Part shown: positions 6,697-51,907 of the stretch, one piece after another
How the letters are laid out: every line of letters begins with the position of its first letter
Position numbering within the stretch: position 1 is the first letter of the stretch
Assembly: GCA_019637755.1 (NCBI GenBank)
Contig: JAHBVC010000001.1
Span: 1,206,480 to 1,270,479, forward strand
Origin: Anaerolineales bacterium
Lineage (GTDB): Bacteria > Chloroflexota > Anaerolineae > Anaerolineales > UBA11579
Reading direction: 5' to 3'
Length of the DNA: 64,000 nt
Translations under genes and position numbers: made by a program
The notes under the pieces: model-generated
Seen by the model: the letters and a program-made list of their open reading frames with translations, nothing else
Database searches by the model: none
Told to the model about the DNA's origin: nothing

Positions 6697-6714
6697 AGGC
6701 TGGTCTGCGAGAGT

Positions 6715-6744
6715 AAAAAAGCCCGGCGTTGCCGGGCTTTTTTT
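6715..6744. terminator. bidirectional intrinsic terminator
   Basis: A-run, GCCCGGC-GTT-GCCGGGC stem-loop and T-run lie between the converging genes ending at 6696 (plus) and 6756 (minus). Confidence 0.92.
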
Positions 6745-6755
6745 GTTGAGGGGGA

Positions 6756-7937: not shown

Positions 7938-7953
7938 CGGCGCGGCGATTATC

Positions 7954-23089: not shown

Positions 23090-25087
23090 TTACTCGAACC
23101 AGAAGCGGTAGACCGCAGTCTGGCGGGTGAAGCGTGTGGTGCCCAGCACCACCAGGGTGACATCGTCGTCCCCGGCAATGTCAATCGCCAGGCGGTTATC
23201 GGCGGGCACATCGAGGATCTCAACAGTGGTGTCAGCCCCGTGGCGAATGAGCGCCAGGCGGAAGTTCTGCGGCAGCAGATTCTCCACACGGGCAAAGCCG
23301 TCGGCTACCCAGCCGCCATCACCCTGCTCAAAGTCTTCGAAGTAGTCGATCGCCGGGATGGCAATGTCATCCACCATGAAGCCTTCGCCGTTGACGGCGG
23401 CATCGGTGATGTATTCGAAGCGCAGTTGCACTTCCTGCCCGGCATAGGCGGAGAGGTCCACGCGCTCCTGGATCCAGTTGCCCGGCTCCGCGCCACCAGA
23501 AAAACCGGTATAGCCCCAGCCAAAGTTGCCGCCGGTGGGATTGCTATCGGTGCCATTGGCGGTCTGCAAAAAGTCCCAAGTGACGCCATTGGTGGAGGCG
23601 AGCAGGTAACCGTAATCCCAATCTTCTTCGATGTTGTACCAAATCGAATATTCCAGACTTAGCGGGGCGCTCACGCCGCGCAGATCGAAGCTGCGCGTCA
23701 GGGTCATGTCCGATTCGTCGCCCTTGTTGGACCAGAAGGCATACTCGCCGGAGTAGGCATCCTGCGGGATGAGTTTGGTAGAGGTGGCACCCTCAAACAC
23801 CAGGGTGCTACCGGGGCAGCTCAGGTTGATGTAATCCACGCCATATTGGTTGACATCACGGGTTTGCTTCTCCGTGGAGCAGGTGGAGACGTATTCCGTG
23901 GGATAGGTCTGCACATAGATCTGGTCACCATACTGCGGGAAGCTATAGCGGCCATCGGCAATGTTGGCATCGTCCCCCAGGTAGTTGGTGATCACCCAGT
24001 CCAGCACCACATCATCGGCCAGCACCGGGGCACCGCTGAGCCCATCCGTGGCGGCCTCAGCCCGCAAGACATTGTCCACCGAGTCGAGCCCGTTGGCCGG
24101 GTCAGCCACCAGCGCCTGGGTAGCCTCGGGGCCGAAGCGTTCGAGGAAGTAGGTGACGAAGGAGAAGGCCGCGCCGTAGTAGGGTGTGGTGTTGTCGTGA
24201 TTGGGCCAGTCATTCAACTGATGGTCAGGATTGCTGGCGTATTGGTAGATAAAGCCCGTGTGTACGTAGCCATTGAGCAGGGTAGCCAATTCCGACAGGC
24301 CTTCGTTGATCCAACTCGATTCGTTGCGATCGGTGTTCCAGTGGATCATGTGCTGGAATTCATGCGCCAGCACACCATAGGTGTACTCATCATCCAACGG
24401 GCTGTTGTCGGCGTTGATCAGGAACATCTCGTGCGCGTTGGAATCGGCGCGGGCGATGGGGTGGATCTCATCGGCGGAGGAGAAGTAGCCGGCGACATTG
24501 AAACCCATACCGGTGGTGTAGAGGATGTAGATGTGCGGATCGTTGTCGATGCCCGGGCTCCACTCGCTGCCGAAGAAATTGCGGTTGATCGGGTACATCT
24601 CATTCTCAAACGCTTTCGCCAGGCGCTCCAGATCGGCCTGATCGTAGCTGACGCCGTTCTCGATCCAGAAGTAGACCACCTCACCCGCGTAGCGCAGGGT
24701 GGCATTGTGCAAGGCACTTTCGTCCGTATCGCTGTTGGTTACCCAAAAGCTCTTTTGGTCACCCACGCGGGCCGGGCCAGCATAGGGCACCGATTCGGGG
24801 ATGTTGAGAATGCCCTGCAAACGTGTGGCAATCTCGGCCGGGTTGTTCTCGGGCACGATGGTTTGCTCCAGCACGCGCAGCGTGGCGTCACTGACCGTGG
24901 TGACGCTTTCGATGAACTGCGGCGTGGGTTGCGAGCTGCCGCCTGAGCCGTTCAGGCTGGAGGGGTAGTCCTGGCCGTTCTCCCAAAACCACAGGAAGCC
25001 CAGACCGCCGATGGCAAAACAGGCGATGCAGGCGATCAGCAGTGTGACGGCCACAATGGCGAGGATGAGGAGGGTTCGTTTATTCAT
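23090..25087 (-). CDS. secreted zinc metalloprotease with C-terminal beta-sandwich domains
   Basis: A 665-residue protein with an N-terminal signal anchor (about 6-34) and a metallopeptidase domain (about 60-400). The zinc motif is 'HEFQHMIHW' (His242, Glu243, His246), with a likely third ligand in 'NEGLSELA' (Glu262 or Glu266). After residue about 420 come one or two beta domains ('WSNKGDESDMTL', 'VQLRFEYITDAAVNGEGFMV') as in immune inhibitor A-type and related peptidases. It probably acts outside the cell. Its start overlaps the preceding O-antigen-ligase-like gene by 8 bases, so it is expressed with the glycan cluster. The exact peptidase family (M6 or M30-like) is not settled. Confidence 0.82.
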   Translation of the reverse strand: MNKRTLLILAIVAVTLLIACIACFAIGGLGFLWFWENGQDYPSSLNGSGGSSQPTPQFIESVTTVSDATLRVLEQTIVPENNPAEIATRLQGILNIPESVPYAGPARVGDQKSFWVTNSDTDESALHNATLRYAGEVVYFWIENGVSYDQADLERLAKAFENEMYPINRNFFGSEWSPGIDNDPHIYILYTTGMGFNVAGYFSSADEIHPIARADSNAHEMFLINADNSPLDDEYTYGVLAHEFQHMIHWNTDRNESSWINEGLSELATLLNGYVHTGFIYQYASNPDHQLNDWPNHDNTTPYYGAAFSFVTYFLERFGPEATQALVADPANGLDSVDNVLRAEAATDGLSGAPVLADDVVLDWVITNYLGDDANIADGRYSFPQYGDQIYVQTYPTEYVSTCSTEKQTRDVNQYGVDYINLSCPGSTLVFEGATSTKLIPQDAYSGEYAFWSNKGDESDMTLTRSFDLRGVSAPLSLEYSIWYNIEEDWDYGYLLASTNGVTWDFLQTANGTDSNPTGGNFGWGYTGFSGGAEPGNWIQERVDLSAYAGQEVQLRFEYITDAAVNGEGFMVDDIAIPAIDYFEDFEQGDGGWVADGFARVENLLPQNFRLALIRHGADTTVEILDVPADNRLAIDIAGDDDVTLVVLGTTRFTRQTAVYRFWFE

Positions 25088-26561
25088 GTAGACCTTTCAA
25101 GTGCGTGGCTTGGGAAGGAAGCATCCCAGCCAAGATGCCAAATAGTACCCACATTAGCGGGAAGGTAAATGAATCCTGGGTAAAGTTGCGCAGCAGGGTT
25201 GCCAGCCAGGCAAATAACCCTGCCACAGCCACAAAACGATAAAACCCATCTTTTGCTACCCACAGTTGGCGCACAAAGGCCAAATGGGAGAGGAAGAATA
25301 CGCTGAAGAACCAAAACCCGGGCAAGCCGGTTTCGGCCAGCAGGCGTACATGCAAATTCTTGATATTGGGGATGATGTCCGAATCCGGGCTGAGCTGACG
25401 AGCGATCTCCGGGATGGTGTAGGACCAATCCGGGAAGTGCGCAAAGAGATACAGGCCGCTGCCACCCAGCCCCACCCCGGTAAGCGGGGCCGCTTCAAAC
25501 ACCTGATAGCCCGCCACGGCGTAGGCCAGGCGCGGCCCGGCGCTGATGTCGATGACGTATTCGACGAGATTGCGCTCTTCGTTTTCGCTAGGCTCCCATA
25601 ACTTGGTGATGTAATCGTAGCTGGCCAGGAAACGGCCCGCGGCAGCCAGCACCAGCAGCGCGCCCAGCGCCAACCCCAGCCGCACGGCGATGGCCGCGGG
25701 CTGCGGCAGGCCCGAACGGCGGGTGCACTTGTGTGCAAACGGCTGGCGATACCAGCCCCAGGCGCGCCCCAGCGCACCACGGCCCGCCAGCACGGTCACC
25801 AGGCCAGCACACACCAGCGCCATCGCCAGGCCACCCCGCGAATAGGTGAGCAGCAAGACGCCCAGGCTGAGCAGCAAGAGCAGTGGCTCCAGCCAGCGCC
25901 AGCGCGTAAGGGCGCTGCGGGTGAGCACGGCGGCAAACAGCCACGGCAGATACAGGCCAACGAGTTGGTCAGCCAGCCAGGAAGGCTCATAGGCTAGGCC
26001 ACTAACACGGCGGTCAAACAGCGGGTGCTCAGACACTAGGCGCTGCAGCGCATTGACCCAACTGGTGTTGACCAGCTCGGTATGGATCGCCAGGGCCTGC
26101 ACCAGGCTCCATAGCAGCGTGAGCACCAAGCCGACATACAACCAGCGCAGCGTGAAGTGCAGCGCGGGGCGGTTGCGGTTCATCCAGAAGGTGGCGAAGA
26201 AGAAGGCCAGACCGACAGATAAGGATACCCAGCCGCGCAAGAGGCGCCCTGCCAGCCCGGCGCCGCGCAACGGCTCCGGCGCATACAGGAGGGCGATGGC
26301 GCCACTGGCGGCGGCAAACAGCAGGAAGACCAGCAGAGGGCGCAGATTGGCGGGCAGCTCCAGACGCTTCTGGCGTACCTGCCGCCACAACAACAAGGGC
26401 AACAAAATGGCCAGCGGCAGCATGGAGAAGGGCTTGATCTGCGCTGAGCCTAATGGCCCGGGGATGTAAGGGAAACTGGTGATCGGCAGGCCGACCAAGG
26501 CGATCGCCCACAACAGCTTGGTGAGGCGCGCAATGGCGCGGTCTACTGCGGGGGCCTTCAT
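25080..26561 (-). CDS. O-antigen ligase/polymerase-like membrane protein (Wzy/WaaL superfamily)
   Basis: A 493-residue protein with 10-12 membrane helices and a large periplasmic-side loop (about 310-400, 'NEERNLVEYVIDISAGPRLA'). It has the RxxxxxxW/His-rich layout of the Wzy_C family ('TGVGLGGSGLYLFAHFPDWS', 'NLHVRLLAETGLPGF'). The conserved 'NLHVRLLAETGLPG' corresponds to the H-N-x-x-L-x-x-x-x-E-x-G-L motif. It would polymerise glycan repeats or transfer them to an acceptor. It follows the Wzz-like gene with an ATGA overlap. Confidence 0.82.
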   Translation of the reverse strand: MKAPAVDRAIARLTKLLWAIALVGLPITSFPYIPGPLGSAQIKPFSMLPLAILLPLLLWRQVRQKRLELPANLRPLLVFLLFAAASGAIALLYAPEPLRGAGLAGRLLRGWVSLSVGLAFFFATFWMNRNRPALHFTLRWLYVGLVLTLLWSLVQALAIHTELVNTSWVNALQRLVSEHPLFDRRVSGLAYEPSWLADQLVGLYLPWLFAAVLTRSALTRWRWLEPLLLLLSLGVLLLTYSRGGLAMALVCAGLVTVLAGRGALGRAWGWYRQPFAHKCTRRSGLPQPAAIAVRLGLALGALLVLAAAGRFLASYDYITKLWEPSENEERNLVEYVIDISAGPRLAYAVAGYQVFEAAPLTGVGLGGSGLYLFAHFPDWSYTIPEIARQLSPDSDIIPNIKNLHVRLLAETGLPGFWFFSVFFLSHLAFVRQLWVAKDGFYRFVAVAGLFAWLATLLRNFTQDSFTFPLMWVLFGILAGMLPSQATHLKGLHE

Positions 26562-33266: not shown

Positions 33267-34610
33267 TCAGGGTAGATGCGAGCCGCCAGAGTGCGGGTCT
33301 GTGGGCTGCGGCGTATCGCTGAGGGATACCAGCCCTTTTTCAATCAACAAGGCAATCACCTGCCACACATCCTGAAAACTGATGTGCAGCTCATCGGCAA
33401 TATCGGCTACACGGCGTGTGCCGTCACAGCGATCCATGATCTCAAAACGGCGCTTATGCCCGGCGGCATCGCTCTTGTAGTCCACCCACAAGCCGTAGCC
33501 GGAGGCGAAGACCTCGCCCTTGAAATGATTGACTACGTAGCGATTGTGTTGGAAGGCCTGAATGAGCTCCAGCACCAACTCCACGGACTGCTCCAGACGC
33601 GTGTGCGAAACAATGGCAGGTGTATCCAGGCTGGAGTGGTATTCGGGGTACGGGGCAAAGCGCGAGGTGGGCAAATGCGGATTGACCACGCGCGAAAGTG
33701 ACAACATGGGCACGCGCACGCCGGGGGCGTTGAACTGGCGCTCGTCATTGTCAATCACGGTGCGGAAGCCGCCCACATAAGCGCCGGGCTCGTGCCCTGC
33801 CAGCGCATTCACCAGCGCGCGGTCGGGCGCGCTGAGCGGCTGGAAGGATTGCTGCAGCGCGTGGGGTGCATCATTGCCCAGCATCTCCAGGAACAGGCCG
33901 CCGAGCATGTTGGGGATTTCGTCCTCGTGTTGGCTGAGGTAGGCAATGGAGCCTTGCGTCTCCGGGAAGATGAGTAGGCGCACGCCGTAATATGGCTTTT
34001 CGCCGCCAGCCGCGGCCGCCAACAGGCGGCGGGCCACTTCGACGCCAACCACCACGCCGCTGAGGTCATCATTCACCATAGCGGGATGGTCAAGATGCGC
34101 CGCCAGCACAAAGTTCTCCGGGCGCTGGCCGGGAATATATACTTCGCCAATTTTTAGAGAGCCGGGCGTAAATTCTGAACGAATAACGACGCGGTACTTC
34201 TCATCCGTCAGCGCATCGCGCAGAGTCTGGGTAGCACACAGGCCCCAGTCACGTTGGTAATACTTGAAGACATAGGGAATCGCGTCGGGGTTGGTTGCAT
34301 GCACATGCAAGTGCGCCAGCAATTCATCACGGCTGACCTCGCCTTCAAATGGCAACGAATACGAGACAACGTGCAAGGGGTGGTTTGCGTAATCCAGCAG
34401 GCGGCGGCCATCCAGCGTTTCGATGTAGGCCTCGTGACAGGTCCACTTCTCGGGCACGGTCCAGCTCCACACCTTGGTGCCGCTGGGCACGGCGTGGATG
34501 GTCATGGGCACTTCCTGCGCCAGGCGCTCCAGGGCGCGGTCGTAATCATCCGAGAGGAGATCACGCTTGAGGAACCACAGCTCCTCGATGAGCTGCATCA
34601 TGCTGGCCAT
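33267..34610 (-). CDS. DUF4910/DUF2172 aminopeptidase-like protein with C-terminal winged helix
   Basis: A 447-residue protein. An N-terminal swivel domain (about 50-150) sits in an M28-like zinc peptidase fold. Metal-ligand segments are 'AAHLDHPAMVNDDLSGVVVG' (His and Asp, about 190-209) and 'FPETQGSIAYLSQHE' (Glu, about 230-245). The last 50 residues ('DGTRRVADIADELHISFQDV') form a winged helix typical of this family. Such proteins recur in polysaccharide loci with unknown function. Here it may trim an aminoacyl or acyl group from an amino sugar (inference from the ACP and ligase genes). The start at 34610 overlaps the upstream stop by one base (TAATG). Confidence 0.82.
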   Translation of the reverse strand: MASMMQLIEELWFLKRDLLSDDYDRALERLAQEVPMTIHAVPSGTKVWSWTVPEKWTCHEAYIETLDGRRLLDYANHPLHVVSYSLPFEGEVSRDELLAHLHVHATNPDAIPYVFKYYQRDWGLCATQTLRDALTDEKYRVVIRSEFTPGSLKIGEVYIPGQRPENFVLAAHLDHPAMVNDDLSGVVVGVEVARRLLAAAAGGEKPYYGVRLLIFPETQGSIAYLSQHEDEIPNMLGGLFLEMLGNDAPHALQQSFQPLSAPDRALVNALAGHEPGAYVGGFRTVIDNDERQFNAPGVRVPMLSLSRVVNPHLPTSRFAPYPEYHSSLDTPAIVSHTRLEQSVELVLELIQAFQHNRYVVNHFKGEVFASGYGLWVDYKSDAAGHKRRFEIMDRCDGTRRVADIADELHISFQDVWQVIALLIEKGLVSLSDTPQPTDPHSGGSHLP

Positions 34611-35380
34611 TAAACTGTCTCCGGGCGGTTGGCTACCAGCGCCCACGGGTCAACACGCAGCAGCGCGTCAGTAGCGGTGACGAAATCCTGCAGGCGGCAA
34701 ACAGCAAGCGAACCGTGATTGAGCTGCACAGACTGCCAATCCGCCGAAGCCTGCAAGGCGGCCTGAATAGGTGCCAGATGCAACTGCGGATTGATGTCCA
34801 TATCGCGCACAAACATGCGGTAGCTGCGCGGCTGCCATTCGCCACCCACATTGACCTGGCCAGGGAACTCTTTCCAGTAGCGATACGGCACCGCGGCGCG
34901 TTGCTCGCTGTAGTGCACCATTGAAGCAGCCTGAATATCGGCGCCGAGCAACAGCAGCTTGAAGTCCGCCTGCAGCATGTGGTCAAAGGCTGAGCCATCG
35001 TCAAAGGCGGAGGGTGTATCGCGGTCAGCCAGTGTATCGGCGGCAGCGCCCAGCGCGGCTAACGATTGCATCGGGTGCAGCGTGCGGCGGGCAGCGGGTT
35101 GCTGGCGCACGAATTCGGAGAACACGCCCATGCCTTGCGAGGGGGTGCTGGCAGGGTCGTATTGGCCAGTCTTGGCGAATTCAAACGAGAAGGTGGGGAC
35201 TACTAACGTGCCGTGCGGGCCAATCAGCGCCTGCAACGAATCGAGATATAGGCTCAAGCCGCCATCAGGCTTACCGAGGAACTGCACGGCGGAGTGCACC
35301 AGCACGCCGTCTCCGGCTTGCACGCCAAGCGCATGCAGCGCGCCATCGAGCTGCTGGCGGTTAAGCGTAGCCAGCGCCAT
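34610..35380 (-). CDS. AAC(3)-fold N-acyltransferase, probably sugar-modifying
   Basis: A 256-residue protein of the aminoglycoside 3-N-acetyltransferase family: 'DGVLVHSAVQFLGKPDGG' (about 22-40), 'GPHGTLVVPTFSFEFAKTGQ' (about 52-72), 'HPMQSLAALG' with the conserved catalytic-site His. Family members in surface-glycan clusters acylate amino sugars rather than drugs. Next to an ACP and aminoacyl-ACP ligase it is a candidate to transfer the activated group onto a sugar amine. ATG at 35380 (TGATG with the upstream stop) is taken; GTG at 35383 is possible. Confidence 0.8.
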   Translation of the reverse strand: MALATLNRQQLDGALHALGVQAGDGVLVHSAVQFLGKPDGGLSLYLDSLQALIGPHGTLVVPTFSFEFAKTGQYDPASTPSQGMGVFSEFVRQQPAARRTLHPMQSLAALGAAADTLADRDTPSAFDDGSAFDHMLQADFKLLLLGADIQAASMVHYSEQRAAVPYRYWKEFPGQVNVGGEWQPRSYRMFVRDMDINPQLHLAPIQAALQASADWQSVQLNHGSLAVCRLQDFVTATDALLRVDPWALVANRPETV

Positions 35381-35847
35381 CACAGCCTCTTGCGCACCAG
35401 AGTGAGGTCGGTAGCGAAGCCTTGTTTGTGCCAGAAGGCCAGCCCGTCATCATTGCCGGCCTGCACCTGCACTTCTACCGAATGCACCTGCAGCTCGGCA
35501 AATTTTTGCATGGCGGCCTGTACCAATTGTGCTGCCGCTCCCGCACCGCGGGCGGCGGGCTGTACGAAAAGGTCGCTGATCTCGCCGATTTGCTTGCCAC
35601 CCAAATAGGCCGGGCTTTGCTTAACACGCGCCATCAGGAAGCCCACTGCGTCACTACCCTGCTCCGCCAGCCATAGAAAACTAAAACGCCCTAGGGTGCG
35701 CTGAAAATTCTCAGCCCACAACTGTGGCGCATTATCTACTTCAGGAAACATGAGCCCCAAGCTGCGGTGATACGCATCCAGCTGCTGCCACAGGGCGGCG
35801 GCGGCGGGCAGGTCTTCTGCGCCCGCGTGGCGGATGCCTACTCCCAT
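35380..35847 (-). CDS. GNAT family N-acyltransferase
   Basis: A 155-residue protein with the GNAT fold: 'IRHAGAEDLPAAAALWQQ', 'ISDLFVQPAARGAGAAAQLV' (motif A, acyl-CoA/pantetheine pyrophosphate loop R-x-x-G-x-A, about 95-115) and 'NDDGLAFWHKQGF' (motif B). It overlaps the aminoacyl-ACP ligase gene by 10 bases. Its donor could be acetyl-CoA or the aminoacyl-ACP made by its neighbours; GNAT enzymes are known to use acyl-ACP in some cases. The start at 35847 was chosen because longer frames run into the ligase gene. Confidence 0.85.
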   Translation of the reverse strand: MGVGIRHAGAEDLPAAAALWQQLDAYHRSLGLMFPEVDNAPQLWAENFQRTLGRFSFLWLAEQGSDAVGFLMARVKQSPAYLGGKQIGEISDLFVQPAARGAGAAAQLVQAAMQKFAELQVHSVEVQVQAGNDDGLAFWHKQGFATDLTLVRKRL

Positions 35848-37019
35848 GCACGCGCCTCGCGCACGATGGCGGGCCACTGCGCCGGGTCAAGGCCGTATTG
35901 CGCCAGGAAGGCGTAGGCCATGCGCTCCAAGCCGAAAGCCACGCAGCCGGTGTGCGCCGGCTTGCCATCCGGCAGCGTGATGTTCAGGTGGCGGCCGAAG
36001 AAATCCTGGTGATAGTTGTACGAGCCCACGGCCAGCGTGCTGTCTTTGAACGGCAGGCGGGCGCGAATTTCATATTTCAGTTGGAAGGCATTTTGGAAGG
36101 CGGCTTGCTTGCGGAATTCGCCAACAAAGAAGGGGTCATTGGCGCTCTCTACCATGTAGGCCAAGCCCAGCTCTTGCAGCCAGGGGGTTACTTTCTTGCG
36201 TGCCGCCTCGCGGTTATCGAGCACGTATTCCCGCGGGCCAACAAAGATCACTTCACGCATGGTGAAGTCCCACAGGCGCTCCAGGCTATTGAGGTTGCTC
36301 GACTCGTAACGGAAGCAGTGGCCCACGGCGGTAGCGGCCAACTGGCCGCCCGGCAACGGCTTATCCGCCAGGCCGAAGTAGAGGTGGTAGCACACGGCGG
36401 GTGAGAGTAATGCCTGAATTTTGGAGAACGACTCCAGCGAGGCGCTCAGGCCGGCCGGTTCGTAGACGGTGTTCTCAGCAAAGTCACTGATGATGTGCAG
36501 GTCTTCGCGCAAATGGGTGGCAAAAGTAAGTGAGTGCGGGAAGGCGCGGAAGTAATTCACGCGCCCCAGCATCTGCGCCGAAATCAGGGTCGGGAAACGC
36601 TGCGGCTGGGCGCCAAATTCGGCAGCCAGCTCCAGAAAATAGTCTTCAAAGACGCCAATTAGGTTGGCCAACAGCGGGCCAAAACTATAGACGCCGTTGG
36701 TCTGCTGGTGCACCTCGCCGCGCTGCTCCAGCTCAGGCATGGGGTCGGCCGCATAGGGCACGGCGCGCTGCAAGTGATCCTCCAGCACCTCCACTTTGGG
36801 CTTGGAGGCGCCGCTGGCCATGTCTTGCACCACGCTCTGCACTTTGGCTTCCAGGTCAGCGGGGGCCGTCGCACGCAGCTGCAGGTCAATGCGGCTGCCA
36901 TCGGCGGCAATGCTGGCCGAGGCGATGGCTTCATCTACATAGGCCAGCTTGGCCTGCACCTGACCCACGAGATGGGCGGGGATGGGAATGACCGGTGTAA
37001 GGGTCAGTTGCTCAGCCAT
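35838..37019 (-). CDS. amino acid:[carrier protein] ligase (class II aaRS-like)
   Basis: A 393-residue homologue of the catalytic core of atypical (archaeal-type) seryl-tRNA synthetase, without a tRNA-binding domain. Class II motif 2 is 'CFRYESSNLNSLERLW' plus 'DFTMREVIFVG' (235-261). Motif 3 is 'GCVAFGLERMAYAF' (358-371). Cys210, Glu256 and Cys359 have the spacing of the Cys-Glu-Cys zinc site of aSerRS and characterised aa:CP ligases. Those enzymes (shown in Bradyrhizobium by Mocibob and colleagues) adenylate Gly or Ala and load it on the phosphopantetheine of a small carrier protein. An ACP gene immediately precedes it (8-base overlap). The about 100-residue N-terminus is an extra alpha/beta region. 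Start at 37019. Confidence 0.87.
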   Translation of the reverse strand: MAEQLTLTPVIPIPAHLVGQVQAKLAYVDEAIASASIAADGSRIDLQLRATAPADLEAKVQSVVQDMASGASKPKVEVLEDHLQRAVPYAADPMPELEQRGEVHQQTNGVYSFGPLLANLIGVFEDYFLELAAEFGAQPQRFPTLISAQMLGRVNYFRAFPHSLTFATHLREDLHIISDFAENTVYEPAGLSASLESFSKIQALLSPAVCYHLYFGLADKPLPGGQLAATAVGHCFRYESSNLNSLERLWDFTMREVIFVGPREYVLDNREAARKKVTPWLQELGLAYMVESANDPFFVGEFRKQAAFQNAFQLKYEIRARLPFKDSTLAVGSYNYHQDFFGRHLNITLPDGKPAHTGCVAFGLERMAYAFLAQYGLDPAQWPAIVREARAWE

Positions 37020-37251
37020 GCTTGCTCTGGATGTGCTCGAGGATGGCCGGCACGCTGATGAGGGCACTGATGGTCTCGGCGGTGATCTCGATACCGAAGG
37101 CGGTTTCGAGCGCCACCATGAGGTCCATATGCCCCATCGAATCCCAGGCGGGCAACTCGCCAAACTGGGTGTCTGCGGTCACCTCTTCAGGCGCTAGCTT
37201 GAAAACATCCGCAAAAACGGATTGAAGTTTTGTGAAATGTGCGTCTTGCAT
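37012..37251 (-). CDS. acyl (aminoacyl) carrier protein
   Basis: A 79-residue stand-alone carrier: a four-helix acidic protein with the phosphopantetheine attachment site Ser38 in 'WDSMGHMDLMVALE'. The preceding 'TADTQFGELPAW' is typical of ACP loop 1. It overlaps the aa:CP ligase gene and is therefore its likely substrate. No fatty-acid synthase genes are nearby. The start at 37251 is set by the length of the family and the 7-base gap to the upstream stop. Confidence 0.92.
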   Translation of the reverse strand: MQDAHFTKLQSVFADVFKLAPEEVTADTQFGELPAWDSMGHMDLMVALETAFGIEITAETISALISVPAILEHIQSKHG

Positions 37252-37258
37252 GCCTGTC

Positions 37259-38863
37259 TTATACCAGAAAGGGCTTGTGTTCCACCACGCCCTCATAGAT
37301 GGCGCGGATGGCAGGTACATTGGCCGCGCGCAGCGCATCCACATCAAAGTCAGCCAGGTTCACATAGCCCATGCTGGTGGGCTGCACGAAGCGCTCAAAG
37401 GGCAGGCTGGTTTTGAAGAGCTGGAAATACAGCACACGCCGTGCCTCGTGCACAAAAGCGGCTGGCTGCGGCACTTCGGCGGCGGCCAGGAAGCGCTGTG
37501 CCTGCTGCTGGTACTCGGCCAGGCTGGCCGGGAAATACAGCGTGGGGTATTGCGTGTAACGCGCCGCCCCCGCGCACAGCGCGGCCTTGCCCATGATGGA
37601 GGCTTCCAAGCCGATCGAGGAGTTGTACAGCATCACGAAGTGGGCCTTCTCGATTAACGCGTACGAGTCAACAAATTCTGTAGGCGGAATGAAGACCACA
37701 TTGGGCAGCGCTTCCAAACCGCGGGCGGCCACCCACTCGGCTACGCTCTGGCGGCTCTGCTTGGTGGAGCCGGGGCGCATTTCGTCTGGGTGAGCGCGCA
37801 GGACGAACAGGGTGCGCGGGTTGGCACGGATCAGCTCTTCTACATAGGCCAACCAGGCGAACATGTCTGCGAACAGCACATTGGCATGCACCTGGCTGGT
37901 GTCAAAGATCACATTGGTAAAGACCGGCACCAGCTTATCAAACTGCGCCGCTTTAGCGAGAAAGCTTTCGTCGAGGGCCTGAATATCACGCCAGAAACGG
38001 ATGCCTGCCATGCTGAAGTCGCCCTTGAAGCGGCGGCTGAGATACGCATCCAATTTTTGATTTTCAGCATCGCTGAGCTGGAACTCAGCAGGGATATCCA
38101 TCGGGTAGGCAGTGGCTTCGCCATCGGTGAAGAAGGCGGTCAGTGGCTGCAGGCCCACCTCATGGGTGATGACGCGCAAACCGCGGCGTATGGCTATCTG
38201 GCGCGCCACGGCCTCGGGGAACATGATGCCGTTGAACACCACCGCTGCTTGTAAGTCCTTGCCTTTGATAAAAGCGCTGAATTCACGCGCTACGTTGTTA
38301 GCCGAAAGGATGTACTCGCGCAGCAAAGTGCGCGTGGTGTCATCGTCTACCAGATCGTGTCTACGCAGCGCCCAGCGCAGCGAAGGCAACACCAGCTGCC
38401 CCAGCGGCAAACCGCCGTGCTCCACGACTAGCAACTCTTCGAGGGTCAGGCTTTGCAAGTGTGCGTGCAACTGACTGTCTGCTGCGTACCCAAACCAGCG
38501 TGCATCGGCACCAGCGTACATGCGGCGAGACTGCGCCACGCAGGCCGCGCACGGCGGCGCCTGCCCTGCATTATCTGGATCAGTGCCCAGCACGCAGCGG
38601 CTCATGCCGGCGTTGCACACAAAATGCAGAATGGGCACACCTTCCAGACGCAAGCCCCATGAAGCCAACAGCGAGAAAGCCGCATTCTGGCTGAGGTGGC
38701 CTAAACGTGTAGAAGCGTTGAAGAATACGACGGGTTTGTGGGCGCGGTGCTCCGCCGCAGCCACGGCGCGCGCGCTACGCGCCAAGCGCACTCGGCTGTT
38801 TAGCGTGTGGAGTTTGTTGACTATTCGCTTGAGCACAATGAACCCAGCCGCCACTGGCGGCAC
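37259..38863 (-). CDS. capsule-polysaccharide-type (GT-B) glycosyltransferase
   Basis: A 534-residue protein with a capsule-polysaccharide-biosynthesis-like layout: 'VVFFNASTRLGHLSQNAAFS' near the N-terminus, a Cys cluster ('CNAGMSRCVLG', 'PPCAACVAQ', about 85-120), 'VFNGIMFPEAVARQIA' and the C-terminal donor half with 'FVLRAHPDEMRP' and 'MLYNSSIGLEASIMGKAAL'. The latter is characteristic of this superfamily (KpsC/S-, CMP-sugar-using GTs among them). Candidate nonulosonate transferase. The GTG start at 38863 is uncertain; GTG at 38836 is also possible. Paralogues lie at 43766 and 52740. Confidence 0.78.
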   Translation of the reverse strand: MPPVAAGFIVLKRIVNKLHTLNSRVRLARSARAVAAAEHRAHKPVVFFNASTRLGHLSQNAAFSLLASWGLRLEGVPILHFVCNAGMSRCVLGTDPDNAGQAPPCAACVAQSRRMYAGADARWFGYAADSQLHAHLQSLTLEELLVVEHGGLPLGQLVLPSLRWALRRHDLVDDDTTRTLLREYILSANNVAREFSAFIKGKDLQAAVVFNGIMFPEAVARQIAIRRGLRVITHEVGLQPLTAFFTDGEATAYPMDIPAEFQLSDAENQKLDAYLSRRFKGDFSMAGIRFWRDIQALDESFLAKAAQFDKLVPVFTNVIFDTSQVHANVLFADMFAWLAYVEELIRANPRTLFVLRAHPDEMRPGSTKQSRQSVAEWVAARGLEALPNVVFIPPTEFVDSYALIEKAHFVMLYNSSIGLEASIMGKAALCAGAARYTQYPTLYFPASLAEYQQQAQRFLAAAEVPQPAAFVHEARRVLYFQLFKTSLPFERFVQPTSMGYVNLADFDVDALRAANVPAIRAIYEGVVEHKPFLV

Positions 38864-38866
38864 ATG

Positions 38867-39739
38867 CTATTTGGCGCGGCGTAGCTTCTCGCGTGAGGGT
38901 AATTCACTATCGTACACACGCTTGACGCCATCACCCAGCGCCTGCTCGGTGACACGGATGTACTTCACCAGCTTCTGCAGCCCACCGGGCTCCACCGAGG
39001 CGGCCTGGTCGCTGCCCCACATGGCACGGTCAAGGGTGATGTGGCGTTCAATGAAGCAGGAGCCCAGCGCCACGGCCACGGCGGAGAGCACCAGGCCCAC
39101 TTCGTGGCCGGAGTAGCCTACCGGGCACGGGAACTTGCTGCGCAGGGTTTCAATCATGCGCAGGTTGAGCTCTTCTGGCTCGCATGGGTAGGTGCTGGTG
39201 GTGTGGGTGAGCATCGTATTGCTCATGTCCACATGGGGAATGGCCTTGTCAATCTCTTCCATGGTGGACATGCCAGTTGAGAGCACCACCGGGCGGCCAG
39301 TCTTGCGCACATGGTCGAGCAGCGCATGGTCGGTCAGTGAGGCTGAGGGAATCTTGTAGCAGGGCGTGTCAAACTTCTCCATGAAGTCAACGGCTGGCTC
39401 ATCCCACACGGACACGAACCAGTCAATGCCTTTTTCCTTGCAGTGAGCATCGATTTCAGCATACTCTTTCTCGCCGAACTCGACCTTGTTGCGGTACTCC
39501 ATGTAGCTGATATACCCCCAGGGGGTCTCACGCATCTTGTCGCGCTGGTCTGGCGGCACGGCCAATTCAGGCGTGCGTTTTTGGAACTTGATGGCATCCG
39601 CACCGGCCCATTTGGCCAGGTCGATCAACTGCTTGGCCGCTTCCAGGCTGCCGTTGTGGTTGATGCCAATTTCACCGACGATATACACCGGGTGGCCATC
39701 CCCCACCATGCGATTGCCAAGCTTCAATTCTCGAGTCAT
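38867..39739 (-). CDS. NeuB-type nonulosonate synthase, short form without SAF domain
   Basis: A 290-residue TIM-barrel enzyme condensing phosphoenolpyruvate with an aldose (ManNAc-like or its phosphate). 'YIVGEIGINHNGSLEAAKQL' (about 19-38), 'DAIKFQKRTPEL' and 'ERHITLDRAMWGSDQAASVE' (about 233-252) are signature segments. The C-terminal antifreeze-like SAF domain present in classical NeuB (about 345 aa) is missing, unlike the enzyme at 48893. Directly followed by the CMP-sugar synthetase-HAD gene upstream on the transcript, forming a synthase/activation pair. Confidence 0.88.
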   Translation of the reverse strand: MTRELKLGNRMVGDGHPVYIVGEIGINHNGSLEAAKQLIDLAKWAGADAIKFQKRTPELAVPPDQRDKMRETPWGYISYMEYRNKVEFGEKEYAEIDAHCKEKGIDWFVSVWDEPAVDFMEKFDTPCYKIPSASLTDHALLDHVRKTGRPVVLSTGMSTMEEIDKAIPHVDMSNTMLTHTTSTYPCEPEELNLRMIETLRSKFPCPVGYSGHEVGLVLSAVAVALGSCFIERHITLDRAMWGSDQAASVEPGGLQKLVKYIRVTEQALGDGVKRVYDSELPSREKLRRAK

Positions 39740-39742
39740 TCG

Positions 39743-40978
39743 TTAGTCCTTTTTGGCGTTTATCGCCATGATTAAATCACAAAGCTCACGCACTGCGCCA
39801 TGCCCGCCTTGCTGGCTCAGGCGTTGGTCAGCCTGCTGCAGCACCGCCGGGTGCGAATCGGCTACGGCCACCGCACAGCCGGCGATGGGGAAGCATGGCA
39901 GGTCATTGGTGTCATTGCCGAGGAACACCGTGTGCTCGGCAGCAATATTGAGTTCGGATAGCAGTTGGCGCAGGGCCTCACCTTTTGCTTTGATGCCCTG
40001 GCGGTGGGCGATGCCCAGCTTCTCGCAGCGGCGCGCCACCACCGGGTTTTCCTCACGCGAGAGCACAAACACTTTCACGCCGGTCTCTTGCAGTTGGCGC
40101 AGGCCCAAACCGTCGCTGCGGTTGGCGGCAATCGATTCTTTGCCGTTCTCATCCACCCAGACGCGATTATCGCTGAGCACACCGTCAAAATCCAGCACCA
40201 GCAGCTTGACCTGCTTGGGGTACGGGCGCGGCAACGGGCCGGGCCACACGGCATCCAGCTCGCCGGAGGTAGCCAGCCACTCGCCGCGCTGCCAGTCACT
40301 CATCGTGTCAATATCCACGGTGTAGGCCGGGTCTACCATCACAGGCAAGATCACATCCCCACTCATGGAGTGCTTCTTGAGGATGACCGAGCTGCGAATG
40401 GCATCCACATGGCCGGTCTGCCAGTAGGTGGCCGGCAGCTGTTGGCGCGGCGCGTTGTAAGGCTCAGCGATGCCCCTGACCTTCAGCAGTGGCTGCATCA
40501 CGCCATCGGCATCCACGCGCCACATCTTGTGGGGGTTTTGTCCGCTGGGCACTACGCCGCGGGCCGAATCGGCCTTGGGATTCTTGAGCAGCAACTGCAC
40601 GGCCTCATCCACTAGGCCACGCGGGCGCAATGGGGATGTGGGGCGCAGCTGCACAACGATGTCTGGCTTATAGCCCTCGTTCTTGGCGAGCCAGGTCAGG
40701 GCATGCTCAAACACGGGCAGGTCTAGCGTATTGTCCTGGGCGTGCTCTGCGGGGCGGATGAAAGGTGCCTCGGCGCCTAAGCCGCGCGCAATCGCCGCCA
40801 TCTCTTCATCATCAGTAGAGATGATCGTACGTGTGACGGTTTCTGCCTGCAGGGCGGCGGCGATGCTGAAGGCCAGCAACGGGTGCCCAGCGAACAAGCG
40901 CACATTCTTGCGCGGGATGCTCTTGGAGCCGCCGCGGGCGGGAATGATGGCAAGGACTTGAGGCTTCTTGGATTTCAT
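39743..40978 (-). CDS. acylneuraminate cytidylyltransferase fused to HAD phosphatase
   Basis: A 411-residue two-domain protein. The N-terminal NeuA-like domain (1-230) has 'VLAIIPARGGSKSIPRKNVR' and 'VVQLRPTSPLRP'. The C-terminal KdsC-like HAD domain (about 245-400) has 'LLVLDFDGVLSDNRVW' (nucleophile and acid Asp), 'VFVLSREENP' (Ser/Thr motif) and 'FLGNDTNDLPCF' (Asp pair). It could dephosphorylate a 9- or 8-phosphate product and then form the CMP-sugar, as in vertebrate CMAS-like architectures. Pairs with the short NeuB. ATG at 40978 chosen, after the upstream stop at 40981. Confidence 0.88.
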   Translation of the reverse strand: MKSKKPQVLAIIPARGGSKSIPRKNVRLFAGHPLLAFSIAAALQAETVTRTIISTDDEEMAAIARGLGAEAPFIRPAEHAQDNTLDLPVFEHALTWLAKNEGYKPDIVVQLRPTSPLRPRGLVDEAVQLLLKNPKADSARGVVPSGQNPHKMWRVDADGVMQPLLKVRGIAEPYNAPRQQLPATYWQTGHVDAIRSSVILKKHSMSGDVILPVMVDPAYTVDIDTMSDWQRGEWLATSGELDAVWPGPLPRPYPKQVKLLVLDFDGVLSDNRVWVDENGKESIAANRSDGLGLRQLQETGVKVFVLSREENPVVARRCEKLGIAHRQGIKAKGEALRQLLSELNIAAEHTVFLGNDTNDLPCFPIAGCAVAVADSHPAVLQQADQRLSQQGGHGAVRELCDLIMAINAKKD

Positions 40979-40980
40979 AC

Positions 40981-41799
40981 TTACCACGCCGTCCAGCCAC
41001 CATCTACAACCAGATTGGCGCCCGTCATGTAGCTGGAGGCATCCGAAGCCAGGAACAGCAGCGCGCCGTTCATTTCATCCTGATTGGCCATGCGGCCCAT
41101 GGCGGCGCGAGCGGAATAGGCTTTGACGAATTCTTCATCTTGCGTGTTGCGTACCCCACCGGGGGTGAGGGCATTGACGCGGATATTTTGTGTGCCGTAA
41201 TACGTAGCCAGGTATTTGGTGAGCCCGAGGATGCCCGCCTTGGTGACGGTGTAATCCACCGGCTTGAAGGAAGGCGGCTGGCCCTCGCGCTGGTAAATGC
41301 GCTGGTCTGGCCCACCCAGGCCATAGGTGGAGCAGATATTGATGATGGCGCCGCGGCCCTGCGAGAGCATGTGCGGCACGCTGGCCTGGCTGAATAGGAA
41401 GGCCCCGGTCAGATTGACGGAGAGCGAATTGTTCCAATTTTCCAGGCTGTAGTCTTCAAACGATGAGCTGTGCTTGCCCGCTTCGCCCGCATCAAACTTG
41501 GGGTCCAGTGCGGCGCTATTGACCAAGATATCCAGGCGGCCAAATGTATCGAGGGTGGTTTGTACGGCGGCTTGCACCGCGGCCTTATCGCTCACATTGC
41601 ACTGCACCGCCAGGCTGCGTTCGCCGAGCTCGGCCTGCAAAGCAGCCAGCGCGGCGGGGTTGAGGTCTACAAGGGCTACAGAGGCGCCAGCCTGCACCAG
41701 AGTGCGGCAAAACTGCTTACCCAACAAACCGGCAGCGCCAGTGACCAGAGCCACGCGGCCAGTGAGATCAAATGCAGATTGAATCATCGTGGTGGGCAT
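40981..41799 (-). CDS. SDR family NAD(P)-dependent oxidoreductase
   Basis: A 272-residue classical SDR: 'VALVTGAAGLLGKQF' (TGxxxGxG), 'NSAALDP', Ser in 'NICSTYGLGG', YxxxK as 'YTVTK' and 'YMTGANLVVDGGWTAW'. Between the catalytic Ser and Tyr it has an insertion ('QRIYQREGQPPSFKPVD') seen in sugar-cluster SDRs. An AGAGG sequence precedes the ATG at 41799. Substrate unknown, probably a nonulosonate precursor. Confidence 0.87.
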   Translation of the reverse strand: MPTTMIQSAFDLTGRVALVTGAAGLLGKQFCRTLVQAGASVALVDLNPAALAALQAELGERSLAVQCNVSDKAAVQAAVQTTLDTFGRLDILVNSAALDPKFDAGEAGKHSSSFEDYSLENWNNSLSVNLTGAFLFSQASVPHMLSQGRGAIINICSTYGLGGPDQRIYQREGQPPSFKPVDYTVTKAGILGLTKYLATYYGTQNIRVNALTPGGVRNTQDEEFVKAYSARAAMGRMANQDEMNGALLFLASDASSYMTGANLVVDGGWTAW

Positions 41800-48892: not shown

Positions 48893-49957
48893 TCAGGCCA
48901 AGTCGCTCTGGCGCACTTCTTTGCCAAAGGGCATATCGGCAGCGGCTTTGCGGCCGAGCACCTGCGGAATATCCCACGACATCAATGCGCCTTCGACCGC
49001 CGGGCGCAGCACTTCGAGCATGTCTTCGGTGAAGACTTCGCCCGCTTTCACATCCCGCGCTACGCGCAAGCAATGGCGCTGCACGATGTAGGTGTCCTTC
49101 TCATTCTCGGCCACAAACTTCTGCTCAGAGCCAAGCGCCCGTTCCAGGATGCGTACTTCGCTCACCATGTGCGCCCAGTTGGCTGGGTTGAGGGCAAATT
49201 TGTGGTCAGGTCCCTCGCGGTCATTGCTATCCGTGAAGTGGCGTTCGATCACACGCGCCCCCAGCGCCACTGCGCCCACTACGGGGGCAGCCCCTTGCGT
49301 GTGGTCTGACAAGCCCAGGATGACATTGGGCCACTTTTGGGCATAGGTCTTGAGCACATTGAGATGCAAATGATCGTAGTTGCTATCGGACGCAGTGTAG
49401 TTGGTGTTGCACTGCATCAGCACAATTTGCTGATTGACCGGCTGCACCATGGCCATGGCACGTTCCACGTCGGCCATGTCGCAATCGCCGGTTGCCATCA
49501 GGATCGGTTTACCAAAGCTGGCCATGCGCACGATGGCTTCGGGCCAGGACATCAGGCTGGAGCCAGCTTTGAAGGCAGGCACATAGGGCACGAGCATGTC
49601 GATGGCGTCATGGTCATAAGGCGAGGAGAAGTAGTGAATATCAAACTCTTCGCAGGCTTCTTTGAGCAGCGGGGTCCATTCGAAGGGAATCGAGGCATCC
49701 TCGTAGACCTCGACCACGCTCTTGGTCCAGGCGGCCTGGTGCGAGAGCTGGCCACCCAGCGAGCGGAAACCGTAGTCAGAGACGATCTTGGGGGCGCGGA
49801 AGTTTTGGAACTTGGCTGCATCGGCGCCAGCTTCTTTGGCTAAACGAATCAGCTCAATGGCGCGGTCTAAATTGCCGTCATGGTTGGCAGCGATATCCGC
49901 AATAAAGTAGGTAGGGTGCTGCAAGCCAACTTTGCGACCTTGAATATCGATTTCCAT
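48893..49957 (-). CDS. NeuB/PseI-type nonulosonate synthase with SAF domain
   Basis: A 354-residue protein. TIM barrel (1-285) with 'YFIADIAANHDGNLDRAIEL', 'AAKFQNFRAPKIVSDYGFRS' and 'ARVIERHFTDSNDREGPDHK'. A C-terminal SAF/antifreeze-like domain (about 300-354) has 'LRVARDVKAGEVFTEDMLEV'. This is the classical sialic/pseudaminic/legionaminic acid synthase layout. It forms a unit with PseB and the SpsF-like enzyme. A GAGG sequence supports the start at 49957. Confidence 0.9.
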   Translation of the reverse strand: MEIDIQGRKVGLQHPTYFIADIAANHDGNLDRAIELIRLAKEAGADAAKFQNFRAPKIVSDYGFRSLGGQLSHQAAWTKSVVEVYEDASIPFEWTPLLKEACEEFDIHYFSSPYDHDAIDMLVPYVPAFKAGSSLMSWPEAIVRMASFGKPILMATGDCDMADVERAMAMVQPVNQQIVLMQCNTNYTASDSNYDHLHLNVLKTYAQKWPNVILGLSDHTQGAAPVVGAVALGARVIERHFTDSNDREGPDHKFALNPANWAHMVSEVRILERALGSEQKFVAENEKDTYIVQRHCLRVARDVKAGEVFTEDMLEVLRPAVEGALMSWDIPQVLGRKAAADMPFGKEVRQSDLA

Positions 49958-49973
49958 CACATCCTCAATCCTT

Positions 49974-50903
49974 CTACAGGCTGGCCAGGCGGCCGGCCAA
50001 GGCACGCACCGTCTGGCGGTGGCCGTTATCTAACTCAGCATGCAAGCGTGCCACGCCTTCGGCCACGCTGGGCAGGCGGCGGCCGAGCGCTTGGCTCAGC
50101 CGACTCACATTCAGGCGCAGGTCCGCTGAACGCGGCGCGCTAGCTTCGGCGTGCAGGGGGCGTACCAGCGCTTCGTCAAAGCCAAACTGCCGCGCAATCA
50201 TCACGCCAAAGTCATACTTGCTCAGGCTGTCGCGGCTGCCGGCGTTGTATATGCCGTGCGCATTGGCAGACAACAGCTCCAGAATAATCTCTGACAAGAA
50301 ACCCACATGCAGCGGAGTGAAGAGACGGTCAGTAAAGCCGTTGACCGCTTCACCCGCGGCGAGCTTGTTGTAAAAGAACTCGGCCAGGCTGTGAGCGCCG
50401 TTGGGGCTCCAGCCGAACAGGTTGGGCCGCAAAATCAGCCACTGCGGATGGGCCGCCTTCACTGCCAACTCCGCCATGCGCTTGGTCTTGGCGTACACGC
50501 TCAGCGGGTTAGGCGCATCGGTCTCTTTGTAGGGTGCCTGGCTGCCGTCAAACACCGCATCCGTGGAAATGTGTACGAAGCGCAGGTTACGGCGCGCCGT
50601 TTCGCGCGCCAGCTCGCCGGGCAGCTCCGTGTTGAGCTTGTGAGCCAACGCTGGCTGGCGTTCGCACGCGTCAATATCGGCCAGGGCGGCGCAGTGCACC
50701 ACCCAATCTGGCTGGGCCTCATCCAGCACGCGTGCCACCGCGCCCGCTGCAAGCAAATCCGCTTGTAGCGTCGCAAAGGGCGCCTGGGCCAGCGGATGCT
50801 GGTTGCTCACGCCCACCACGGTGTAGTGGGCAGCAGCTAGCAGAGCCAGGTTGCTGCCCAGCAGGCCGCTGGCGCCTGTCACCAGGAGGCGCGGTTGGCT
50901 CAC
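49974..50903 (-). CDS. RmlD/CapF-like NAD-dependent sugar reductase
   Basis: A 309-residue extended SDR of the dTDP-4-dehydrorhamnose reductase type: 'LLVTGASGLLGSNLALLAAA', 'HCAALADIDACERQP', 'FVHISTDAVFDG' and YxxxK 'YAKTK'. It could reduce the 4-keto sugar made by the PseB-like enzyme, with which it is coupled by ATGA. No rmlA/B/C genes are present, so rhamnose synthesis is unlikely. Confidence 0.86.
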   Translation of the reverse strand: MSQPRLLVTGASGLLGSNLALLAAAHYTVVGVSNQHPLAQAPFATLQADLLAAGAVARVLDEAQPDWVVHCAALADIDACERQPALAHKLNTELPGELARETARRNLRFVHISTDAVFDGSQAPYKETDAPNPLSVYAKTKRMAELAVKAAHPQWLILRPNLFGWSPNGAHSLAEFFYNKLAAGEAVNGFTDRLFTPLHVGFLSEIILELLSANAHGIYNAGSRDSLSKYDFGVMIARQFGFDEALVRPLHAEASAPRSADLRLNVSRLSQALGRRLPSVAEGVARLHAELDNGHRQTVRALAGRLASL

Positions 50904-51907
50904 GCCAGCTTGCCTGCTTTCATATCCGCCTCAATCGGCGCAATGATGTCACGGATCTCAGCCGGGCTGAGCATTTGCTCGTTCTCATTGCTGACGTAAT
51001 GGAAGCCCTCGGGAAGCGCTTTGCCCTTATCAGCCCAGGTGTGTACAAAGAACGGGCCCTGGGCCGGCTGGATGACGTACATGCTCTCCAGCTCTACCGC
51101 GGAGCGCGCTTCATCTTCGGAGATCAGCACTTCGTGCAGCTTCTCACCGGGGCGGATGCCTACGACTTCGATCTCGGCCTCCGGGGCAATCGCCTGGGCC
51201 AAGTCTGTGATGGTGGTGCTGGGCAGCTTGGGCACAAACACTTCGCCGCCATGCATGATCTCAATGCAATTCAGTACAAAATCAACGCCCTGTTCAAGTG
51301 AGAGCCAGAAGCGCGTCATACGCTCATCGGTGATGGTGAACTTGCCCGCCTCACGCTGGCGCAGGAAGATGGGCACCACGCTGCCGCGGCTGCCGACCAC
51401 GTTGCCGTAGCGCACGCAGGCGAAGCGCGTCGGGCGGTCACCGGAGTAGGCGTTGCTTTGCACGGTGAGCTTCTCGGCGGCCAGCTTGGTGGCGCCATAG
51501 AGGTTGGCCGGGCTGACGGCTTTGTCTGTGCTGAGCGCCAAGACTTTCTCTACGTTGTTCTCCAGCGCGGCTTCAATCACATTGGCCGTGCCGAGGATGT
51601 TGGTCTTGATGGCTTCCATCGGGTTGTACTCACACGCTGGCACCTGCTTGAGCGCGGCAGCGTGGATGACGATGTTGACGCCATCCATGGCGCGCTTGAG
51701 ACGCTGCTCATCACGAATATCGCCAATGAAATAGCGCAAGTTCTCCTGATTGAAGCCCGCCTCGCGCATTTCGTGCTGCTTAAGCTCATCACGGCTGAAG
51801 ACAATGATCTTCTCCGGCTGGTATTTCTCTTGAAGAATGCGAATGCAAGCCTTACCGAAGGAGCCCGTGCCGCCAGTGATGAGGATGGTTTGATTTTTCC
51901 AATTCAT
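50900..51907 (-). CDS. pseB: UDP-N-acetylglucosamine 4,6-dehydratase (inverting), PseB/FlaA1-like
   Basis: A 335-residue protein: 'ILITGGTGSFGKACIRILQE' (about 8-27), 'FSRDELKQHEMREAG', 'GDIRDEQRLKRAMDGVNIVI', 'HAAALKQVPACEYNPMEAIK' and 'SPANLYGATKLAAEKL'. It removes water from UDP-GlcNAc and inverts C5, opening the pseudaminic acid or the L-FucNAc pathway. No PseC aminotransferase follows it; the only one in the window is at 6756. Confidence 0.92.
   Translation of the reverse strand: MNWKNQTILITGGTGSFGKACIRILQEKYQPEKIIVFSRDELKQHEMREAGFNQENLRYFIGDIRDEQRLKRAMDGVNIVIHAAALKQVPACEYNPMEAIKTNILGTANVIEAALENNVEKVLALSTDKAVSPANLYGATKLAAEKLTVQSNAYSGDRPTRFACVRYGNVVGSRGSVVPIFLRQREAGKFTITDERMTRFWLSLEQGVDFVLNCIEIMHGGEVFVPKLPSTTITDLAQAIAPEAEIEVVGIRPGEKLHEVLISEDEARSAVELESMYVIQPAQGPFFVHTWADKGKALPEGFHYVSNENEQMLSPAEIRDIIAPIEADMKAGKLA

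Follow-up and report, generated by a model that had tools for sequence, protein, structure and literature searches.

Described systems that resemble the cassette

The genes considered here form a five-gene cassette within a 64,000-nucleotide stretch of DNA from an Anaerolineales bacterium (GenBank assembly GCA_019637755.1, contig JAHBVC010000001.1, positions 1,206,480 to 1,270,479 of the forward strand), hereafter the window. The cassette encodes a stand-alone acyl carrier protein (ACP), a class II amino acid:[carrier protein] ligase, a GNAT acyltransferase, an AAC(3)-fold N-acyltransferase and a DUF4910 protein, each of which has relatives in previously described systems. Ligases of this kind were reportedly described in 2010, and those of the Bll0957 type are credited to Mocibob (2010, 2013). 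A 2022 review nonetheless regarded their biological role as still unknown (PMC9437257), and our literature search found no paper tying these ligases to glycans. The cassette ligase shares with those of the Bll0957 type (PDB 3mey/4h2s) the class II core, the zinc ligands, motifs 2 and 3 and the proximity of an ACP gene, at 32-34% identity in structural alignment. Unlike them, it carries an extra N-terminal domain of ~85 residues, which is also present in some other relatives, and it resides in a glycan cassette rather than in the acyl-CoA dehydrogenase/DUF1839 setting.

The loading of an amino acid onto a small carrier protein, followed by its delivery to a surface polymer, is familiar from Dlt D-alanylation (DltA-DltC-DltB-DltD). 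In Dlt, however, loading is by DltA, an AMP-binding adenylation enzyme from a different superfamily, and transfer is carried out outside the membrane by a membrane-bound O-acyltransferase (MBOAT), of which none was seen in the cassette. Members of the AAC(3)/FrbF group (3sma, 2nyg, 6mb4) resemble the cassette AAC(3) in fold and in a conserved His/Glu; those that are known use acyl-CoA donors and antibiotic or small-molecule acceptors, whereas the cassette protein is linked to an ACP and lies in a sugar operon. As for Campylobacter jejuni, we take Cj1298 and Cj1299 to be a GNAT and an ACP, and we know of no class II ligase in the Cj1295 locus. Cj1295 and Cj1296/7 do, as here, bring a DUF4910-family gene and an N-acetyltransferase gene together in a nonulosonate locus (PMC3068675), but the acyl group concerned is dimethylglyceric acid and not an amino acid. 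The set of DUF4910, N-acyltransferase, ACP and nonulosonate genes is found in the window and in related loci alike, a likeness to C. jejuni in gene content only. In Clostridium acetobutylicum, the CA_C2186-2199 neighbourhood holds the DUF4910 protein CA_C2195, an ACP, an aminosugar N-acetyltransferase and a NeuB-type synthase; a protein combining a haloacid dehalogenase (HAD) phosphatase with an N-acetyltransferase is listed there together with an ATP-grasp ligase, while no class II ligase is listed (PMC4000134). The HAD-phosphatase protein probably serves in FkbH-like glyceryl loading. The parts of the cassette are, as such, of known families, and their combination would be a new form of carrier-protein-dependent sugar acylation.

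The ligase, its carrier protein and their conserved partners

The five genes occupy positions 37251-33267 of the minus strand and are translationally coupled, with successive overlaps of 8, 10, 1 (TGATG) and 1 (TAATG) bases. They are present as an earlier reading of this DNA (the original prediction) had named them, and a Pfam scan of the products confirmed the families (PP-binding, tRNA-synt_2b, Acetyltransf_1, Antibiotic_NAT and DUF4910 with DUF2172); the placement of the cassette within a surface-glycan operon by that reading was likewise borne out, the surroundings being those of a CMP-nonulosonate/capsule-type operon.

When the ligase was searched against PDB sequences, the best match was Bll0957, a glycine:[carrier protein] ligase (E 2e-41), followed by archaeal-type seryl-tRNA synthetase (aSerRS; E 4e-25). 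The class II motifs 2 (FRYE) and 3 (GLER) can be read as originally claimed, as can the zinc-site spacing of C210/E256/C359. These three residues are invariant in 18 members of the ligase family and align to positions 131/176/279 of Bll0957 (numbered after subtracting a 20-residue tag), which we take to be its published zinc ligands. An AlphaFold2 model of the ligase (pLDDT 80.6) superposes on aSerRS 2cj9 with a Z score of 26.2 (2.7 A, 279 residues) and on Bll0957 3mey with a Z score of 22.7 (3.2 A, 261 residues, 34% identity). The score against NCBIfam NF005479 is 171.6 bits, below the equivalog cut-off of 357, and the enzyme is therefore a divergent relative rather than an NF005479 equivalog. 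At residues 330-335 it reads AVGSYN, where Bll0957 has ACMSFN and aSerRS has SVGSFN; this SerRS-like motif might, as a matter of guesswork, indicate a roomier pocket.

In the ACP, W36, D37 and S38 are invariant in 16 sequences. The source assembly (2.26 Mb, its nearest named relatives being Anaerolineales metagenome-assembled genomes, MAGs) encodes a single ligase of the cassette type, one DUF4910 protein and one AcpS, together with an ordinary SerRS and a separate ACP, both away from the cassette. With a single such ligase, a normal SerRS, a second ACP elsewhere and one AcpS, the cassette ACP appears to be a dedicated carrier, and it is very likely that the ligase charges it.

The distribution of the cassette was assessed in loci of the ligase clade and around 32 ligases outside it, counting only loci with a contig flank long enough to show the gene in question, and at the genome level in 151 related genomes. 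Within the clade, an ACP gene adjoins the ligase directly upstream in 42/43 loci, and the counts are 34/34 for AAC(3), 30/30 for DUF4910 and 36/42 for GNAT; outside the clade, AAC(3) was nearby in 1/24 cases and DUF4910 in 0/19. Thirty-three of the 151 genomes carry the ligase, and DUF4910 occurs in 31 of these against 34 of the 118 that lack it (Fisher p = 6e-12); in the two ligase genomes without DUF4910 (G054 and G061), the ligase gene sits close to the end of a contig. Such clustering greatly exceeds what chance would give, and chance is excluded as its cause. Co-occurrence of the ligase/ACP pair with the acyltransferases outside this genome had been set beforehand as one point on which the original prediction could fall, and it holds; the association with NeuB genes, likewise singled out for checking, was found in 25/29 clade loci with a long upstream flank.

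The usual gene order is ACP-ligase-(GNAT)-AAC(3)-DUF4910, following a KpsC-like glycosyltransferase and usually also NeuB and a cytidylyltransferase. Clade loci cover several families of the order, with ligase identities of 62-98%. The sole AAC(3) case outside the clade, a Phycisphaerae (Planctomycetota) contig (L113), shows the same gene order, ACP-ligase-GNAT-AAC(3), with a ligase that is 45% identical, and in the ligase tree it branches outside the Chloroflexota and Pseudomonadota clade members (99/97 support for the rest). Furthermore, pairwise ligase distances correlate with those of DUF4910 (r 0.91), AAC(3) (0.86) and ACP (0.82) more closely than with those of NeuB (0.58), which argues that the cassette genes evolve together and that the nonulosonate synthase is the part being exchanged.

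A proposed route to an N-aminoacylated sugar

The gene content, the motifs, the conserved linkage and the fusion described here are observed; every catalytic step of the cassette, its amino acid and its product are inferred. The class II ligase would use ATP to activate a small amino acid and load it onto the phosphopantetheine of the dedicated ACP, from which the AAC(3)-like enzyme would transfer it to an amine of an amino sugar, either nucleotide-linked or free. The acceptor would most likely be a nonulosonic acid, or a hexosamine precursor, supplied by the same operon, and DUF4910 would prepare it through the removal or exchange of an existing N-acyl group. The GNAT would be accessory and might, for example, acetylate the amino acid at its alpha-amine or act on a further amine of the sugar, and the KpsC-like transferase would subsequently place the sugar onto a surface polymer. 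We put the probability of this pathway as a whole, a carrier-protein-dependent sugar N-acylation in which the amino acid moves from ACP to sugar amine, at roughly 0.5; that the pathway modifies a sugar of some kind is likely. In a more tentative extension, tRNA-synthetase-type activation may feed the swapping of N-acyl groups on surface amino sugars without tRNA or acyl-CoA, with the AAC(3)-like enzyme and DUF4910 as the swap pair, and related clades may use the ligase in MBOAT-based surface modification. If the pathway is correct, this clade of ligases gains a biological role on a surface amino sugar. A strictly conserved cassette with defined partners makes the role of the ligase assayable, in terms of which amino acid, which ACP and which sugar.

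The cassette AAC(3) has an invariant H156/E159 and matches the folds of FrbF, YokD and AAC(3) structures, while its 102 bits against the resistance-type family NF033082 (cut-off 270) is not an aminoglycoside-resistance score. In ligase-free relatives, a PF02522 gene lies within 5 kb of DUF4910 in 26/35 DUF4910 loci, and a profile search of the ligase-free AAC(3)-DUF4910 loci turned up no ACP of the cassette type. Moreover, AAC(3) and DUF4910 form one open frame of 708-718 residues in G058 (L166:9297-11444) and, by coordinates, also in G141 (C14) and G147 (C38), all three genomes being without the ligase. DUF4910, tied in C. jejuni to pseudaminic acid modification, hereby gains a clear partner in the AAC(3)-like enzyme. 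Because the pair exists without the ligase and can be fused, AAC(3) and DUF4910 may be viewed as a sugar-modifying core and the ligase/ACP as its amino-acid supply; the simplest reading of these sequences would be a two-enzyme core with an exchangeable acyl supply, of which the ligase/ACP form is the amino-acid version. Such a modular logic, if true, would swap the acyl supply while holding the sugar-modifying core constant. ACP-linked and ACP-free AAC(3) proteins have H156/E159 in common and differ at ~30 positions that are fixed in the ACP-linked group, a difference to be expected if the donor or acceptor had changed, and suggestive only.

The division of labour could be otherwise, with the GNAT delivering the ACP-borne amino acid to the sugar and AAC(3) and DUF4910 performing an unrelated acetyl-CoA-dependent change. 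The GNAT gene does stand directly behind that of the ligase in most loci, and AAC(3)-DUF4910 pairs do occur without ligase and ACP. However, GNAT was not found in 6/42 clade loci (L074, L075, L078, L079, L080 and L107), and in L107 its slot (6193-7143) is taken by a formyltransferase-family gene (PF00551 E 4e-27), whereas AAC(3) is never missing. For this reason AAC(3) is favoured over GNAT as the transferase, and we hold it to be the more probable aminoacyltransferase with some, not strong, confidence; the exchange of roles is unlikely. The N-aminoacyl sugar of the original prediction stands as the best reading, well supported by context, while the GNAT, which it had offered on equal terms with AAC(3) as the transferase, has lost ground. 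Three f1 loci (L042-L044) have two GNATs each. An accessory N-acylation, such as capping of the alpha-amine of the amino acid, would explain the variability of the GNAT.

A number of observations weigh against the proposed pathway. The locus counts are not independent events, since related MAGs of the Anaerolineales supply most of the loci. With respect to the donor, AAC(3) enzymes of known activity take acyl-CoA, and ACP-free relatives also pair with DUF4910, for which reasons the cassette AAC(3) may still use acetyl-CoA; a charge signature for ACP docking was considered and rejected, net charge being alike in the ACP-linked and ACP-free groups. With respect to the acceptor, NeuB was not found within 10 kb in 4/29 clade loci, the NeuB type varies among cassette loci (plain, or a NeuB-SAF-TIM-barrel fusion), and the PseC-like gene of the window lies ~25 kb from the cassette and scores below its cut-off. 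Since NeuB varies in type and was not found in those four loci, something other than a nonulosonate may serve as acceptor, and we lean only slightly towards a nonulosonate or a nonulosonate precursor.

It is also conceivable that the aminoacyl-ACP is an intermediate of some other product (peptide-like, lipid-linked or a secreted metabolite) and that the link to glycans is one of location or regulation only. Other class II ligases adjoin acyl-CoA dehydrogenases, DUF1839 or nonribosomal peptide/polyketide synthetase (NRPS/PKS) genes, and an alphaproteobacterial subclade adjoins MBOAT and SGNH-like genes. Ligases from plasmid records match only from ~residue 92 on, and those opened adjoin acyl-CoA dehydrogenase, DUF1839 or NRPS genes. 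Anaerolineales loci, on the other hand, are without such genes beside the cassette, which is flanked instead by the KpsC-like transferase and glycosyltransferases, and this alternative is rather improbable.

The role of DUF4910 bears upon what is done to the sugar. In pseudaminic acid, the 5-N acetyl group originates from GlcNAc through the Pse pathway, and as such its replacement requires a deacylation or exchange step. This need accords more with a DUF4910-AAC(3) pair than with trimming. A DUF4910 profile matches the CA_C2195 structure 3k9t with E 1e-112 over residues 19-434, and H175/D181/H325 of the cassette protein correspond to the CA_C2195 zinc ligands H189/D195/H324. At the positions of the M28 catalytic Asp and Glu, the protein has A177 and P216, comparable to the Ser and Pro of CA_C2195 (PMC4000134). 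An M28 aminopeptidase assignment was thus ruled out: the catalytic Asp and Glu are absent, and the ligands retained are those for a single zinc rather than two. For DUF4910, Das et al. proposed either the transfer of an acyl group onto an amino sugar (transacylation) or the deacylation of sugar amides (PMC4000134). In C. jejuni, Hitchen et al. associated Cj1295 with di-O-methylglyceroyl pseudaminic acid, in which Logan et al. had identified the di-O-methylglyceroyl group as the 5-N substituent, and suggested removal of the 5-N acetyl group (PMC3068675). We propose that the cassette DUF4910 is a mono-zinc sugar N-deacylase or transacylase; action on the N-acyl group of a sugar is a possibility that we advance with reserve.

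The original prediction had instead cast DUF4910 as a trimming or editing enzyme, and a related alternative would have the amino acid either O-esterified to a sugar or attached to a different acceptor, DUF4910 then being a hydrolase or editing enzyme. In its favour are the M28 fold of DUF4910 and the 8-substituted N-acetylglutaminyl pseudaminic acid that C. jejuni also carries (PMC3068675). Nevertheless, DUF4910 is without the M28 catalytic residues (PMC4000134 for CA_C2195), it pairs or fuses with AAC(3) where ligase and ACP are missing and there is no aminoacyl supply to edit, and loss of Cj1295, the precedent for installing an acyl group, abolishes the unusual substituent rather than raising it (PMC3068675). 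The trimming role is not supported on these grounds, and the O-ester alternative is, by a shade, less probable still than a non-glycan product. Last, the notion that the ligase is tRNA synthetase-like and charges RNA, the ACP being incidental, draws on the slightly better Z score of its core against aSerRS and is very improbable, with the sequence nearer to Bll0957, an ACP adjoining nearly every clade ligase and an ordinary SerRS gene elsewhere in the genome.

Exchange of DUF4910 is seen in L047, L075, L079 and L126, where a distant subfamily replaces the usual one and the rest of the cassette is kept; the L047 replacement is 31% identical and nearer the general PF16254 model, and in L126 the distant DUF4910 lies upstream of the ACP. 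Because DUF4910 genes of plasmid records sit beside other sugar genes, with no annotated AAC(3) or ACP adjoining, DUF4910 is presumably a general sugar-modifying family.

Neighbouring genes and further observations

The coordinates of the cassette and of the surrounding sugar genes are collected below. For the glycosyltransferase that precedes the cassette, the best Foldseek matches of the model were to KpsC, with WbbB close behind (E about 1e-8, at modest TM scores of 0.3-0.5), and judging from this model the enzyme probably uses a CMP-ulosonate. The window also contains two NeuB genes, an RmlD-like reductase and a Gfo/Idh oxidoreductase, as well as genes that, by their sequence, resemble those of sulfotransferases and ABC exporters.

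Table 1. Positions in the window of the cassette genes and of associated sugar genes.
Feature	Coordinates	Strand	Support
ACP, stand-alone, 79 aa	37012..37251	-	PF00550 E 5e-8; phosphopantetheine site Ser38 in WDSMGHMDL
Class II amino acid:[carrier protein] ligase, 393 aa from ATG	35838..37019	-	PDB 3mey E 2e-41
GNAT acyltransferase, accessory	35380..35847	-	PF00583 E 4e-15
AAC(3)-fold N-acyltransferase, putative transferase of the aminoacyl group to a sugar amine	34610..35380	-	PF02522 E 3e-38
DUF4910 protein with inserted DUF2172 and CA_C2195/Cj1295-like C-terminal domain	33267..34610	-	PF16254 E 2e-60; PF09940 (DUF2172) E 3e-30
GT-B glycosyltransferase, KpsC/WbbB-like	37259..38863	-	Capsule_synth E 2e-4; model pLDDT 90.3
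NeuB-family nonulosonate synthase without SAF domain	38867..39739	-	PF03102 E 7e-78
CMP-nonulosonate cytidylyltransferase fused to KdsC-type phosphatase	39743..40987	-	TIGR03584 (147 bits) and PRK09484 (135 bits), each under its cut-off
PseB-type UDP-GlcNAc 4,6-dehydratase, same operon region	50900..51907	-	TIGR03589 478 bits, cut-off 407.75
PseC/LegC-like aminotransferase	6756-7997		Below family cut-off

At 48893-51907 of the window, the second NeuB gene (with SAF), the RmlD-like reductase and PseB are contiguous with no aminotransferase between them, an arrangement that possibly reflects an unusual nonulosonate route. In several cassette loci, among them L043 (5489-7372) and L046 (4787-6694), NeuB-SAF is fused to a xylose-isomerase-like TIM barrel; the NeuB nearest the cassette in the window has neither extra domain. 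Among ligases, the nearest relatives, at 44-52% identity, lie close to ACP and MBOAT genes in Rhodospirillaceae and Magnetococcales (L105:7206-11236, L106:7035-11239 and L111:8175-12882), with AlgX/SGNH-like genes also near the ligase in L105 and, by resemblance, in L106. By its gene content this set would be Dlt-like, with a class II ligase standing in for DltA. Elsewhere in the window, ARAGORN called a tRNA-Thr at 25695-25787 on the minus strand, inside an open reading frame at 25080-26561, which is probably a false call.

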